Source: a virus. From it: a stretch of DNA of 23,422 nt. The stretch's first letter is position 1. Each line of letters begins with the position of its first letter. This document shows positions 4,186 to 17,079 of the stretch, in pieces. Made by a program: the position numbers and the translations under genes. Location of the stretch: IMG/VR virus record IMGVR_UViG_3300013120_000048, positions 1 through 23,422 of that record, one strand, 5' to 3'. The notes under the pieces were generated by a model that worked only from the letters and a program-made list of their open reading frames with translations, had not been told where the DNA came from and did not search any database.

Positions 4186-4197
4186 AGAGGTGACAAG

Positions 4198-4281
4198 ATG
4201 ACCGGATTGCTGATTTACATAATACTATTGATTGTTGCCTTGTCTTTGTGGATCGTTGGCGTATTGGCGGATAAGGCGTAG
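4198..4281 (+). CDS. 27-aa single-pass membrane microprotein
   Basis: An ATG at 4198 has GAGAGGTG at 4185-4192, six bases upstream, and opens a 27-codon frame ending at TAG 4279-4281. The product is MTGLLIYIILLIVALSLWIV followed by GVLADKA: one hydrophobic helix of about 20 residues with a short charged end. It would insert in the host inner membrane. It lies 12 bases after the DUF5131 gene and 60 bases before a hairpin, at the end of that transcript. Possible roles include a holin-like or host-modulating peptide, but it has no other diagnostic feature and I would not name it. Confidence 0.55.
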   Translation: MTGLLIYIILLIVALSLWIVGVLADKA

Positions 4282-4340
4282 AAATCTATGGTATAAATAG
4301 CTTACGACTACTCCTTTACTCCTTCTTCTCCTCCTATTTA

Positions 4341-4379
4341 GACAAATCCGCGGTATTCCAGCAGCCCCGCGGATTTGTC
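4341..4379. terminator. 13-bp perfect inverted repeat: terminator or operator
   Basis: GACAAATCCGCGG (4341-4353) and CCGCGGATTTGTC (4367-4379) pair perfectly around a 13-base loop. It separates the early genes from the HTH gene, as a terminator would, but lacks a T run on either side. It also ends eight bases before the -35 box of the HTH gene, where an operator would sit. A pyrimidine-rich tract (4308-4336) lies just upstream. Confidence 0.55.
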
Positions 4380-4386
4380 GCGTCAT

Positions 4387-4414
4387 TTGACAAAATCCCA
4401 AAAATGTATAAAAT
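4387..4414 (+). promoter_or_regulatory. Promoter giving a leaderless mRNA for the HTH gene
   Basis: TTGACA at 4387-4392 and TAAAAT at 4409-4414 are separated by 16 bases. Transcription would start about seven bases after the -10 box, which is the A of the ATG at 4421. No Shine-Dalgarno sequence lies between. Reading the -10 as TATAAA (4407-4412) would give a 14-base spacer and a leader of about two bases. Confidence 0.6.
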
Positions 4415-4420
4415 GCGAAT

Positions 4421-5283: not shown

Positions 5284-6493
5284 TGCTTCTCCTCATCCAG
5301 GACAAAAGGCGGTTCACGAAAACCCGGCAAGGTTCAAGGTTCTAGCCGCGGGCCGTAGGTGGGGCAAAACCCGGCTCGGCGTCAATGAATGCTTGGGAGT
5401 TGCAGCCGCTGGAGGCCGGGCCTGGTGGGTTGCGCCTACTTATAAAATGGCCGCCGTAGGATGGAGACCACTTCACAGAATGGGAATACAGATAGGAGCG
5501 GAAGTTAGACGAGTAGATCGCCAAATAATGCTGCCAAACGGCGGAGAGGTTACGGTGAGATCGGCTGATAATCCAGATACACTCCGCGGAGAAGGTCTGG
5601 ACTTTGCGGTACTTGATGAGTGTGCATTTATTTCGGAGTCGGCCTGGACGGAGGCAATACGCCCCGCCCTATCAGATCGCAAGGGTAAGGCAATGTTTAT
5701 ATCCACCCCCAAGGGCAGAAACTGGTTTTTTCGTCTTTACCAGCATGGGCAAACTGGAGATCCGGCTTGGCAATCCTGGAAACTACCAACAGAATACAAC
5801 CCCCATATAGACAAAGAAGAAATAGAAGCGGCGCGGCAATCGCTACCTGAAATGATATTTCGGCAAGAATATTTGGCCCAATTTCTGGAGAACGAAGGTG
5901 CTGTATTTAGAAATATATCCAATTGCATGGACGCTGATAAAAAAGCCACGATTGAGCATCACACGGATTACGACGAAAGAGGGGAAATCATAAGGTATCA
6001 CAACCTAATGGCGGGGATCGATTGGGGAAAGCAAAACGACTTCACAGTCATTTCAATCGGTTGCGCAGACTGCAATGTCGAAGTAGCAAGAGATCGGTTC
6101 AACCAAATCGATTATTCCTTTCAACGCAAGCGCATAATGTCTTTGCTGGATGAGTGGAAAGTAAACACAGGACTAGCAGAAACTAACGCCATGGGCGATC
6201 CGATACTTGAACAACTCCAGGCCGATGGTGCGCCGCTCGAAGGATTTCAAACGACCGCGCAAACAAAGCCGCAACTTATAGAGAATTTGGCCCTTGCGCT
6301 CGAGCGCGAAGAATGGCAATTCCAGGAAGACCCGATATGGACAGGCGAGCTAGAGGCATACGAGCGCAAGATATCAGCCACGACCGGGAGATCATCCTAT
6401 TCGGCCCCGGAAGGGCTGCATGACGACACCGTTATAGCGCGGGCGCTGATGGTGATGAGCGGCACGTATGGCTATCATGGTATATATGTGTAG
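5258..6493 (+). CDS. terL: Terminase large subunit (ATPase-nuclease)
   Basis: The 411-aa protein has Walker A GRRWGKT at 32-38, Walker B LDE at 119-121, and the coupling motif STPKG at 149-153. The C-terminal RNase H-like nuclease shows AGIDWGKQNDFT with its acidic residue, and a closing GLHDDTVIARA with the last catalytic aspartate pair. The enzyme pumps DNA into the prohead and cuts the concatemer. Start ATG 5258 lies within the terS gene; no later in-frame ATG keeps the N-terminal segment before Walker A. All catalytic motifs appear intact, so packaging should be functional. Confidence 0.95.
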   Translation: MKTKKIQINASPHPGQKAVHENPARFKVLAAGRRWGKTRLGVNECLGVAAAGGRAWWVAPTYKMAAVGWRPLHRMGIQIGAEVRRVDRQIMLPNGGEVTVRSADNPDTLRGEGLDFAVLDECAFISESAWTEAIRPALSDRKGKAMFISTPKGRNWFFRLYQHGQTGDPAWQSWKLPTEYNPHIDKEEIEAARQSLPEMIFRQEYLAQFLENEGAVFRNISNCMDADKKATIEHHTDYDERGEIIRYHNLMAGIDWGKQNDFTVISIGCADCNVEVARDRFNQIDYSFQRKRIMSLLDEWKVNTGLAETNAMGDPILEQLQADGAPLEGFQTTAQTKPQLIENLALALEREEWQFQEDPIWTGELEAYERKISATTGRSSYSAPEGLHDDTVIARALMVMSGTYGYHGIYV

Positions 6494-6500
6494 GTGAAAT

Positions 6501-7859
6501 ATGATTAGACGATTCTTTGACAGGATACTAAACCGCAAGGCATTGGCAGAACTGACTCCAGCCTGGAAAGTGGGAATGCCCCAATACCCCGAAGTAAGTT
6601 TTGATAGCATGATCCGTTTGGGCTATCGGAAAAATGAACTGATATTTGCCTGCATCGATGCCAAGGCCAGGACTGCCAGCCAGGTATCAAACCGTGTAGT
6701 TGACGACGATGGCAAGGTGATAGATGGGCATCCATATAATGATCTAATCAAGAACCCCAACCCTGACATGACGGAGTCCGACTTTTGGGCAAGCGTGATT
6801 ATTTATCAGGATACCGCGGGAGTGGCTTACTACGAGAAAGAGCGTAACAACGGAGGCGATGTTATACGGCTATGGCCTTTGCGCCCCGATTGGGTGCGGC
6901 CCGTCCCTGGTCGTGATACCCCAATTGCCTATTACGAATACCGACCAGACGGCGAAACATCACCCAAACAAATCGCCGTTGAGGATGTTGTAGCGCTAAA
7001 AATATTTGATCCTCTAAATATGTATAACTCGTATCCGCCCGTTGCCGTTGCTTCCCGTGTGGGCGATGTAGATAACGCTATGACCGACTTCCTAAACAAG
7101 TTCATGCAAGAGGGCGGCATACCACCAGGAATAATCAAGACCAAGAAAAAATTACGCAGCGAAAACGAGGCCGAGAATATCAGTCGCAGATTTTCGGCCC
7201 GGTATGGCGGTCATCGCAAGTGGAACAAAGGCCCGGCGGTATTTGACGCTGACGCCGATTGGCAGAAAGCAGGCTTTGACTTCCAGGAAATGGGCTTCGA
7301 AGCTCTGGACGCCAGGAACGAGGCCCGTATATGTATGGTGTTGCGCGTTCCACCTATCATCATTGCTGCCAAGATTGGATTGGATCGATCCACATATAGC
7401 AATTTCGAGACGGCCCGGCGTCAGTGGTGGGAGGATGTACTAATCCCCATCTATAAAAACCACAACGATGGCATAGGTTCTCAATTGCTTGTAGACTTTG
7501 CGAGCGATGGCGAAAGCCTACGCGCCGCATGGAATTTTTCCGGCGTGCCAGCACTAAACGAGAATGTAAACGACCGCTGGAAGCGCGCCAATGATGCCTG
7601 GAACACCGGGGCAATTACGCGAAATGAGTTTTACCGCGAGACCGGGCAGGAAGAAAAAGGTCCCGCTGGCGATGTGTATAAGATGCCTTTCGCGTCTGTC
7701 GAAGTTCCTGCCAATCAATCTAAGGCTATGGAAACTAAGCAGGTGCCCGGAGAAGATGAGCGGGTGGAACTTGAAGGCGAATTTTCTGATGCCATTGGCG
7801 ACTATTACACCGAAATGAGAAAAGATGTCGAGAAACGAATTGCCGAACGATACGGATAA
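6501..7859 (+). CDS. Portal protein, HK97 family
   Basis: The 452-aa product follows terL by seven bases with TAGGTGA before the ATG. It shows the HK97-portal pattern: NELIFACIDAKARTASQV near the N-terminus, HPYNDLIKNPNPDMTESDFW, then RLWPLRPDWVRPVPG, and the ring segment FLNKFMQEGGIPPGIIKT. A later segment RVPPIIIAAKIGLDRSTYSN is also typical. The portal forms the dodecameric ring at one head vertex through which DNA passes and to which the connector binds. The C-terminus beyond about residue 400 is charged and helical and overlaps the next gene by 35 bases. Confidence 0.93.
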   Translation: MIRRFFDRILNRKALAELTPAWKVGMPQYPEVSFDSMIRLGYRKNELIFACIDAKARTASQVSNRVVDDDGKVIDGHPYNDLIKNPNPDMTESDFWASVIIYQDTAGVAYYEKERNNGGDVIRLWPLRPDWVRPVPGRDTPIAYYEYRPDGETSPKQIAVEDVVALKIFDPLNMYNSYPPVAVASRVGDVDNAMTDFLNKFMQEGGIPPGIIKTKKKLRSENEAENISRRFSARYGGHRKWNKGPAVFDADADWQKAGFDFQEMGFEALDARNEARICMVLRVPPIIIAAKIGLDRSTYSNFETARRQWWEDVLIPIYKNHNDGIGSQLLVDFASDGESLRAAWNFSGVPALNENVNDRWKRANDAWNTGAITRNEFYRETGQEEKGPAGDVYKMPFASVEVPANQSKAMETKQVPGEDERVELEGEFSDAIGDYYTEMRKDVEKRIAERYG

Positions 7860-8460: not shown

Positions 8461-9302
8461 TAGAGATGAAATTTGTCGATGTTAATAGATGCCCAGTATG
8501 TGGTCACGATGAAACGCCGGGTATGTCCGACAATCTGGTCAAGTGCCTTGAGGGTGAGATTTACGTCACCTATAACCTATGCTTGCAATGTGGGCTAATG
8601 TTCCAGGCACAAACGCTGGAAAACTGGCTTGAGTATTACAAGCACGATTACCGGGCCAATCTTAATAATGGAAACGGCGGGGTGACAGAGAAACAAATAA
8701 GAATACAGAACGCCCGTGCTGTTGCTCTTGTGAGCGCCTTTGACCTTGACGGCTATACCAATGTGCTTGATATCGGGAGTTCAACGGGTGCATTGTTGGG
8801 TGTGCTTCGAAGCATGGGCGTATACGTTACGGGCGTCGAGCCTGGGATCAAATATAGGGACTTTCAGCGCGAGCGTGGTGTACCATGCTATGACACCATT
8901 GACGATATCACCGTGGGTAGCCAGTTCGATCTAATCACAATGATTCATTCGCTGGAACATTTCGCCGATCCTGCGGGAATGCTGAAGAAAGTACGGAAGT
9001 ACGCCCACAACGACACCAGGCTGATGATAGACGTTCCCAACTATCAAGAGAGCCAATCAGCGCTTGGTTTTGCCCATCCCGTTGCTTTTGACCCCGATAG
9101 CCTATTGAATTGTTGCTGCATGGCCGGGTGGAATGTACAGAAAATGCACGGCTGGAGCGGCAATACAGATACTATTCAATTCCTGATGGTAGAACTAACG
9201 CCGGGCGATATGTGCATGGTTTTGCCGGAACCGATCGACTACTATGAGCGCAAGCAGATAATAGTCGATTTATTTAACCTGGAGGTGTCATGCTGCAAGT
9301 AA
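8457..9302 (+). CDS. Zinc-ribbon class I SAM methyltransferase
   Basis: Start ATG 8457 overlaps the previous stop (ATGA); ATG 8466 is also possible and has GGAAG ten bases upstream. Residues C12-x2-C15 and C42-x2-C45 make an N-terminal zinc ribbon. A Rossmann methyltransferase domain follows, with motif I VLDIGSSTG at 103-111, the acidic VTGVEPG segment, and QFDLITMIHSLEHFADP as the post-motif region seen in Methyltransf_23-type enzymes. Zinc-ribbon enzymes of this build often methylate sugars or small metabolites. The substrate here is unknown. Its place among head genes, translated together with them, suggests a virion component or a virion sugar as substrate, which is inference. Confidence 0.88.
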   Translation: MIEMKFVDVNRCPVCGHDETPGMSDNLVKCLEGEIYVTYNLCLQCGLMFQAQTLENWLEYYKHDYRANLNNGNGGVTEKQIRIQNARAVALVSAFDLDGYTNVLDIGSSTGALLGVLRSMGVYVTGVEPGIKYRDFQRERGVPCYDTIDDITVGSQFDLITMIHSLEHFADPAGMLKKVRKYAHNDTRLMIDVPNYQESQSALGFAHPVAFDPDSLLNCCCMAGWNVQKMHGWSGNTDTIQFLMVELTPGDMCMVLPEPIDYYERKQIIVDLFNLEVSCCK

Positions 9303-9715
9303 AGGGCCTGGGCAGAATATTAGATCGCTTTAGGCACATAAAGAATAATACAAGCGAAGTGCTTGAGGAGAGCATGGAGGAGGCCGTTTTATTCGTTCAT
9401 TCTCAGGTTCCGCCCTATCCCCCCCCACCAGAGGGAAGCACGTACCGGCGTACTATGACATTGGGACGCAGCATTACCACAATGAAAGGCAAAAGCCCGA
9501 CCGCAGAAAGCCGGGTAGAGGTCAAATCGTTGGGCGTGGTGCTTGGATATATTGGCACAAATGTAAAATACGCCCCTTATGTGATTAGCCGAGAAGATCA
9601 GGCGAGAACACATAAAGGCCGCTGGTACACCCTGGAAAGCGTTGTAGAAAAGGCCAAGGGTGGAATCAATAAGATATTTCGTAAGAATATCAGGAATTTA
9701 CTAAAAGGAAAATAG
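9290..9715 (+). CDS. HK97 gp10-like head-tail or minor tail protein
   Basis: GGAGGT at 9281-9286 precedes the ATG, which lies inside the end of the methyltransferase gene. The product (141 aa) has the gp10-like layout: an N-terminal helix with EESMEEAVLFVHSQVP, a Pro-rich loop YPPPPEGSTYRRTMTLGRSI, beta strands, then YIGTNVKYAPYV and a C-terminal helix with a Lys-rich end. Proteins of this type sit at the head-tail junction. The position before the protease is unusual, since gp10-like genes normally lie after the capsid gene with the connector genes. Assignment is moderate. Confidence 0.65.
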   Translation: MLQVKGLGRILDRFRHIKNNTSEVLEESMEEAVLFVHSQVPPYPPPPEGSTYRRTMTLGRSITTMKGKSPTAESRVEVKSLGVVLGYIGTNVKYAPYVISREDQARTHKGRWYTLESVVEKAKGGINKIFRKNIRNLLKGK

Positions 9716-15396: not shown

Positions 15397-16416
15397 ATGA
15401 CAACCAGCGTAGGAATTAAAGCATTACGGAAAATACAAGGTGGAGCAGAGTCCACTGACGCCAGCGGTACGCCTGTTGCTGCAACCTGGTTATGGCGCGG
15501 CATGGGTGTAATTGACGATCAGCGAGAGGTGGTATTCGTTGACGAGGATATCGGCTATCTGTCTGGTGTGGATCGAACATATATTCCGAGACTCGCCGCT
15601 GCATTGACAATGACGGACATCGAAGCAACCTTTGAACAATTGCCGTACATCTTCGAGGCCGGAATTGAGGCCGAAGCATCTACGCAGGACGGAGCAGGGT
15701 CAGGTTATATCTACGAATACGATTTTCCAACTACCGCCCAAAACGATATCAGAACCTATACCCTGGAGGGCGGGGACAATGTAGAGTCTGAAGAAATGGA
15801 ATACTCTTTCGTTCAGAATTTCAACATAACGGGCAGCGCTGGAGAGGCACTATTCGTCAATGCTGATTGGATGGGTAGGCAAGTATCTACTGCAGATTTC
15901 ACTGGAGCTATCGCGATTCCCGCGGTCGAGGAAATCCTATTCTCCAAGGGAAAGCTATATATCGACCCATCGACCGACACTATAGGCACATCGTTGATAT
16001 CCAATTCGTTGTTATCGATGGACTTGAGCGTAAATACCGGACTTGTCCCGGTGTTCACAGCAGAAGGTAATTTGTATTTTTCGTTCATCAAGACATCGGC
16101 CGATGAGCTTGAGGTATTGCTAGATATCACGTTTGAGCATGATAGTAATTCGCAGGCCGAAAAGGTGAATTGGCGCAACGAGAGCGCCCGAATCATTCGA
16201 CTCTTGTTCGAAGGGTCGGCGCTTGGCACAACTGGAACCGATTACGGCGTCAAGTCGTTTATCATCGATCTGGCCGGAAAGTGGGAGAACTTCGAACCGC
16301 TTGACGACCAGGACGGCAATGACATCCTTACAGGGACATTCCGAGCGCGCTACAACTCTGACGCGGCTCTATTTGGCCGGATGACGGTAGTCAATGAATT
16401 GTCGGCGCTTACATAA
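15397..16416 (+). CDS. Major tail tube protein
   Basis: AAGGAG precedes the ATG. The 339-aa protein has the tube-protein pattern: an N-terminal TTSVGIKALRKIQGGAE, a WLWRGMGVIDDQREVVFVDE region, then GYLSGVDRTYIPRLAAALTM and EATFEQLPYIFEAGIEAE. A duplicated beta domain follows, with EYSFVQNFNITGSAGEALFV and a final ILTGTFRARYNSDAALFG. It assembles into rings around the tape measure. It lies between terminator-like and chaperone genes as expected. The absence of a sheath gene supports a non-contractile tail. Confidence 0.85.
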   Translation: MTTSVGIKALRKIQGGAESTDASGTPVAATWLWRGMGVIDDQREVVFVDEDIGYLSGVDRTYIPRLAAALTMTDIEATFEQLPYIFEAGIEAEASTQDGAGSGYIYEYDFPTTAQNDIRTYTLEGGDNVESEEMEYSFVQNFNITGSAGEALFVNADWMGRQVSTADFTGAIAIPAVEEILFSKGKLYIDPSTDTIGTSLISNSLLSMDLSVNTGLVPVFTAEGNLYFSFIKTSADELEVLLDITFEHDSNSQAEKVNWRNESARIIRLLFEGSALGTTGTDYGVKSFIIDLAGKWENFEPLDDQDGNDILTGTFRARYNSDAALFGRMTVVNELSALT

Positions 16417-16417
16417 C

Positions 16418-16834
16418 ATGAAAATAAACATCCCCAAGATTATCAGACCGATTGCACTATCTGACTACGCCGACGAAATGGGCGACGCGGTTATCTATGT
16501 TTGGGTGAACCCGTCACGGGAGCTACGTATCAAGTACGATGTTGAGCGCGAAGAGATTGACGAATTACTGACGGAGATCAAAGAACTATCCGAACAGGAA
16601 AAAAAAGAAGAACAAATCAAGTTGGTTTACGACAGTATCGCAAAATGCAACGATAGGCTTTTCGGGTGGTGGTCTGAAATACTCAGCCAGCACGACGACA
16701 AAGATACCCATTGGACAATCGAAGAAATCAAGCAAATCGTTGACATGGATACCGATCCTGGGTTCTGGCATTGGTTGCAATCTCAAGCGTTTGATCTAAT
16801 AGAAAGTCATCGAAGTGCCAATAAAAAAAAATAG
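16418..16834 (+). CDS. Tail assembly chaperone, short form (G-like)
   Basis: ATG 16418 is chosen: it comes one base after the tail tube stop, while an in-frame ATG at 16394 lies inside the tube gene. The 138-aa acidic helical protein (MKINIPKIIRPIALSDYADE at the start) fits a G-type chaperone that holds the tape measure before tail assembly. It ends with AAT AAA AAA AAA TAG, a run of nine A at 16823-16831 directly before the stop. A -1 slip there would extend it into the T frame. Location between tube and tape measure matches the lambda G/GT arrangement. Confidence 0.8.
   Translation: MKINIPKIIRPIALSDYADEMGDAVIYVWVNPSRELRIKYDVEREEIDELLTEIKELSEQEKKEEQIKLVYDSIAKCNDRLFGWWSEILSQHDDKDTHWTIEEIKQIVDMDTDPGFWHWLQSQAFDLIESHRSANKKK
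16823..16831 (+). other. A9 slippery site for -1 programmed frameshift
   Basis: Nine consecutive A bases are read as three Lys codons just before the G stop at 16832-16834. A -1 slip re-reads A16831 as the first base of ATA and enters an open frame of 82 codons. A short hairpin (AATAGCG at 16830-16836 with CGCTATT at 16845-16851) starts at the end of the run, and a longer one lies at 16871-16912. Confidence 0.75.
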
Positions 16835-17079
16835 CGCGCGAGGCCGCTATTGTTGTAAGGGTTCAAAAGGTTGACGCCAATTCCAAGATTGCACAAATTG
16901 AATTGGCGTCAAAAATAAATAAACTTTCGGGGTTTTCGATAGCCCCATGGAATGTTAACGAGTTGCCCGATGATTGGATAGACACGTTCGAATTATATCA
17001 CCGGGCGATAGCCAAAAAGCAAAAAGAAGAATCAAGAAAGGTGACGCGTGGCAAAAGAAGTTTTAGAAGTCATCATTAA
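16831..17079 (+). CDS. T extension of the tail assembly chaperone (GT), -1 frame
   Basis: From ATA at 16831 the frame is open for 82 codons to TAA 17077-17079, filling the 213 bases between the G stop and the tape measure start. It has no good start codon of its own, as expected for a frameshifted part. The translation begins IAREAAIVVRVQKVDANSKI, contains WNVNELPDDWIDTFELYHRA and ends with a basic tail. The GT fusion would be 220 aa and run 32 bases into the tape measure gene. In lambda-like phages GT is made in a small fixed ratio to G and is needed for tail assembly. No protein evidence exists here, but the geometry is standard. Confidence 0.75.
   Translation: MAREAAIVVRVQKVDANSKIAQIELASKINKLSGFSIAPWNVNELPDDWIDTFELYHRAIAKKQKEESRKVTRGKRSFRSHH
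16871..16912 (+). promoter_or_regulatory. 13-bp hairpin downstream of the frameshift site
   Basis: TTGACGCCAATTC (16871-16883) and GAATTGGCGTCAA (16900-16912) pair perfectly around a 16-base loop. It starts 39 bases after the slippery run, farther than the usual 5-9 bases for a stimulator, so its link to frameshifting is uncertain. It has no T run after it, so a terminator is unlikely. Confidence 0.55.

Follow-up and report, generated by a model that had tools for sequence, protein, structure and literature searches.

A probable G/GT-type -1 ribosomal frameshift in the tail module of a metagenome-derived virus

Introduction

How is an open reading frame (ORF) expressed when it lies one base back from the end of a tail gene and appears to have no usable start of its own? 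The question is raised by IMG/VR virus record IMGVR_UViG_3300013120_000048, a single viral record consisting of one metagenome-derived contig, whose positions 1 to 23,422 form the stretch analyzed here (the window). Near its tail genes, a gene that we call G (16418-16834, plus strand, as are the other features of the locus) stops directly behind a run of adenines, and a -1 frame, T, continues to 17079. A preliminary description, made from the letters of the window alone, read this arrangement as a counterpart of the G/GT genes of phage lambda. There, both gpG and gpGT bind to the tape measure protein, with the T part responsible for binding to the tail tube protein, and G/GT is widely conserved (PMC5009743). 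We consider it highly probable that G is a tail chaperone whose extended form, GT, is made by -1 ribosomal slippage on A_AAA_AAA, and, as far as its sequence allows us to judge, the locus is a distant but ordinary representative of the lambda G/GT kind.

Results

A single predicted slip site between G and T

G encodes the putative short form of the chaperone (138 amino acids), and its 3' end reads AAT-AAA-AAA-AAA-TAG, with the stop at 16832-16834. Its start is most likely at 16418 rather than at an upstream ATG (16394), because the G proteins of relatives begin MK.... The terminal A9 run (16823-16831), read by G as three AAA codons, is the longest A run and the only A9 of the window, and nowhere else are the G and T frames open together. 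The -1 frame has a TAA at 16822-16824 that overlaps the start of the run; the frame is then open from 16825 until it closes at a TAA at 17077-17079, and a move from G to T is therefore possible only inside the A9. The overlap holds a single usable heptamer in slippage phase, A_AAA_AAA (16825-16831), flush with the 0-frame TAG. The T extension comprises 82 codons plus its TAA (16831-17079), and the predicted GT fusion has 220 amino acids with the junction ...SANKKK-IAREAA.... On the A9 ending of G and on the 82-codon -1 frame to 17079, the preliminary description thus agrees with the sequence and its translations.

The +1 frame past G closes after 12 codons. A first-order Markov simulation gives a probability of 0.015 for a -1 frame open over 81 codons, so that openness by itself is only modestly surprising and suggestive, and no proof.

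G contains a second A run in slippage phase, an A8 at 16599-16606, which sits in an insertion of ~40 residues that is absent from three relatives (L037, L039, and L081; related contigs are cited by L numbers). We rejected this run as a GT slip site, because a -1 slip there meets a stop within ~20 codons, which yields a truncated product and cannot make GT.

Homology of both frames

Profiles built from the six closest relatives, with the window excluded, match both G (E 4.1e-29) and T (16825-17076; E 2.8e-15). A broader profile of the relatives' T, built without the window from T frames picked for being -1 with a heptamer, ranks 16825-17076 first among six-frame segments (E 6.7e-4, with the next segment at 0.57). 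Judged by this homology, both frames are protein-coding, and the homology of T combined with the phase of the heptamer secures the -1 frame as real.

Conservation across 61 loci

None of 50,697 phage records matched the window region, the tail tube protein, G, the GT fusion, or the G of L087 in DNA and protein searches, and a direct search of viral contigs with G was equally negative. A search with the tail tube protein instead led to six and then to 80 related viral contigs, plus two genome contigs; a G profile search added L087, L088, and L090. The loci found with the tail tube protein were reduced to 61 non-redundant ones, with G proteins below 80% identity to one another. G starts were set automatically or by eye, and a few loci with inserted genes or an ambiguous G were assigned by hand. 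The automatic choice of G at most loci favored ORFs with an open partner frame of either sign, a bias for which the comparisons between -1 and +1 and between phases serve as within-locus controls. The counts below are not fully independent, as a single protein led to all the loci and these have common ancestry, and the counts apply to loci with a recognizable G/T pair: L004 and L052 (no G/T) and L024, L078, and L079 (other layouts) were left out.

The order tail tube, G, T in -1, and tape measure is found in the window and in most related viral contigs, and in nearly all contigs the end of T overlaps or abuts the start of the tape measure gene. Comparison with related phages for a conserved T frame, a check suggested by the preliminary description, supports it, and the -1 stops in relatives that would have spoken against it did not appear: past the G stop, the -1 frame is open further than the +1 frame in 57 of the 61 loci (binomial p 5e-13), and at least 40 open -1 codons follow that stop in 60 of them. 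At least one slippage-phase XXXYYYZ heptamer is present in the G/T overlap of 57 loci, vs 7 and 6 in two control phases. The four loci without one are L049, L058, L062, and L063; in the last of these, an apparent T near 6272-6493 is in +1 (or -2), a departure from all other family members that points to another type of frameshift or to an indel introduced in assembly. The heptamers themselves vary among relatives (CCCCCCA/G, AAACCCT, CCCAAAC/A, CCCTTTA/G, and AAAAAAC/T/A) while the -1 relation stays constant; AAACCCT, CCCCCCA/G, and CCCAAAC/A are the commonest family-wide (L004-L086). A heptamer flush with the G stop, as in the window, recurs in six relatives (L021, L026, L027, L041, L042, and L084).

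The closest G/T subfamily consists of the window and L037, L039, L081, L087, L088, and L090, and T lies in -1 in all seven. Their runs at the slip site are A9 (window, L087, and L037), A8 (L088), A10 (L090), A6C (L039), and A6T (L081). Runs of A8-A10 in five members and A6C or A6T in two fit ribosomal -1 slippage as the common mechanism.

Some relatives depart from this layout. In L004 (5999-6144) and L052 (after 5334), the tail tube gene is followed directly by the tape measure gene with no G/T between them, and the tail tube protein of L004 is a fairly close relative of that in the window. In L008 (~6017-6713) and L078 (~5988-7314), extra genes that look glycosyltransferase-like by eye stand between the tail tube gene and G.

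Predicted folds and neighboring genes

The model of G has a predicted local distance difference test (pLDDT) score of 92.5, and the two viral structures that it matches best carry the annotation tail assembly chaperone (Foldseek probability 1.00, template modeling (TM) score 0.58, E 0.05-0.08). Against the HK97 chaperone (2OB9), its match is weak (Z 5.6, root-mean-square deviation 4.7, 96 residues) and tied with many unrelated helical chains; a PDB search with the model returned generic helical matches only.

G adjoins, upstream, an ORF at 15397-16416 that we assign by predicted fold as the major tail tube protein, the analog of gpV. Its AlphaFold model (pLDDT 86.5) matches solved tail tubes, best that of P74-26 (8ed0, E 6.8e-14), then that of SH-Ab15497 (8xan, E 1.7e-11), and also that of T5. 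Downstream, the ORF at 17048-18778 matches by BLASTP the ORF that follows T in relatives (for example L039, E 6.5e-31), and the equivalents in L004, L005, and L028 match PHROG tape measure families. G is thus placed between a tail tube gene, by fold, and a tape measure gene, by homology and through the PHROGs of relatives. The tape measure start, GTG 17048, overlaps the end of the T frame by 32 bases, and the 213-base-pair gap between G and the tape measure gene is the second largest intergenic gap of the window.

Among the tail genes tested from 13994 onward, sequence matches were no better than noise. Elsewhere, the window carries genes for a helicase loader, RecT, terminase, portal, protease, and major head protein. 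Its longest non-A homopolymer is a C8 run (9419-9426) inside an ORF at 9290-9715.

RNA structure and inverted repeats

Family-wide, the RNA just 3' of the slip sites is more stable than shuffled sequence (mean z -1.78, vs -0.07 for control stretches; p 4e-7). Within the T frame of the window, a perfect 13-base-pair inverted repeat (16871-16912, arms 16871-16883 and 16900-16912) is predicted to form a strong RNA hairpin (z ~ -4 in surrounding windows), a candidate long-range stimulator or regulatory element. It is one of two perfect 13-base-pair inverted repeats in the window with arms within 40 base pairs; the other (4341-4353 and 4367-4379) lies within the window's largest intergenic gap (4186-4420) and is possibly a terminator or a regulatory site.

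Discussion

Gene order, the homology of both frames, the conserved -1 relation, the conserved slippage-phase heptamer, and the tail-tube fold upstream are directly supported by our data. From these we infer the production of GT, the ribosome rather than RNA polymerase as the slipping machine, the G:GT ratio, and the protein contacts. We propose that G acts as a tail assembly chaperone and that most ribosomes would halt at the TAG at 16832 and yield G, whereas a minority would slip one base back, with two tRNA-Lys on A_AAA_AAA, read ATA GCG CGC..., and yield GT. The site A_AA.A_AA.A is of the type V_VV.A_AA.R, one of the most efficient motif classes in E. coli (PMC4066793). By analogy with lambda, the G part would coat the tape measure protein, the T part would recruit tail tube subunits, and the frequency of slipping would set a G:GT ratio that matters for tail assembly. 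If the locus is of the lambda kind, the ratio of GT to G would be low and GT would be needed for assembly. Ribosomal -1 slippage would account for the whole family, with mixed heptamers and the A6 runs of L039 and L081 included.

Several observations weigh against this proposal. In the window, the 60 nucleotides at canonical spacing from the slip site are not unusually structured (z +1.6), no conspicuous Shine-Dalgarno-like stimulator precedes the site, and the hairpin in T lies ~40 nucleotides past it, too distant for a canonical stimulator. Scans of G, T, and their relatives against Pfam and PHROGs returned no credible named tail chaperone family, at a distance that the profiles may not reach; we dismissed weak isolated matches such as Dcp2 and LYR. 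Finally, a run of nine adenines can support transcriptional slippage in many bacteria, and it is at this length that selection against slipping by the polymerase begins to show in many of them (PMC1088944).

This last point raises the alternative that RNA polymerase slips on the A9 and adds one A (or loses two) in some mRNAs, joining G and T in frame; with one added A, the protein would be the same as the ribosomal product. The recurrence of A8-A10 runs in L087, L088, L090, and L037, which exceed the A7 or A6N required for a heptamer, favors such slipping. However, in two members of the subfamily, L039 and L081, the run is limited to six A's, with C or T next, yet both retain A_AAA_AAN and the -1 relation, and polymerase slippage does not account for the mixed heptamers that predominate in the wider family (such as AAACCCT and CCCAAAC). 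We therefore regard polymerase slippage in place of ribosomal slippage as unlikely, and note that transcriptional slippage on the A9 could add to the ribosomal kind. A related, speculative, and likewise improbable idea is that in the A-rich subfamily (the window, L037, L087, L088, and L090) the run grew to A8-A10 as polymerase slippage came to set, or to co-set, the G:GT ratio; if true, this subfamily would represent a tail chaperone switch that has shifted from translation to transcription.

The remaining alternatives deny a programmed fusion altogether. T might be a separate gene, unfused to G, that begins at a TTG present in its frame (16903) or at a rare codon. There is no obvious Shine-Dalgarno sequence ahead of this TTG, which falls inside the conserved T domain matched to the T of relatives, and the relatives' T overlaps G exactly around the slippage-phase heptamer. 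These observations agree with the view of the preliminary description that T has no usable start, and make a separate gene very improbable. We give equally little credence to a homopolymer error of sequencing or assembly that hides a true A10 and one continuous G-T ORF: such runs are prone to error and the window is a single contig, but the same -1 break occurs in dozens of independent contigs, mostly at non-homopolymer heptamers, and an A9 with T in -1 is present independently in L087 and L037. A chance open frame without function, for which openness alone would leave a likelihood of ~1.5%, is refuted by the homology of T (E 2.8e-15) and the conserved heptamer phase and is practically untenable.

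Reading the locus as G with a slippage-made GT allows the tail module to be annotated correctly in a poorly known phage lineage, one for which no relatives of these genes were detected among the phage records searched. The 61 loci, in which one -1 frameshift is retained while its heptamer varies, are a useful comparative set for the evolution and turnover of slip sites. Beyond annotation and this set, our analysis confirms an established mechanism of the G/GT kind already known.

Relation to known systems

The likeness to lambda G/GT claimed by the preliminary description is borne out by gene order (tail tube, G, -1 T extension, tape measure), a coding T, a slippage-phase heptamer near the end of G, and conservation in relatives. 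The lambda slip site is G_GGA_AAG; the window differs in having A_AAA_AAA flush with the G stop. Genes 17.5/17.5* of SPP1, with a putative -1 frameshift on UUUUUUC (PMC6316719), are similar in that a -1 slip is predicted on a homopolymer-rich heptamer in a tail chaperone gene before the tape measure gene, although the SPP1 site is U-rich and that of the window A-rich, and the window genes have no sequence match in phage records. The HK97 chaperone bears a weak structural likeness over most of G, no better than that of unrelated helical proteins. The tail assembly chaperones of Mycobacterium phage Pringar (records of 191 and 357 amino acids) are the best viral predicted-structure matches of G, from which they differ at 11% identity and the marginal Foldseek values given above. 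As in Thermus dnaX and insertion sequence (IS) elements (PMC1088944), an A9 run would give a trans-frame product; unlike in those systems, the arrangement persists in relatives of the window whose runs are too short or too heterogeneous for transcriptional slippage.
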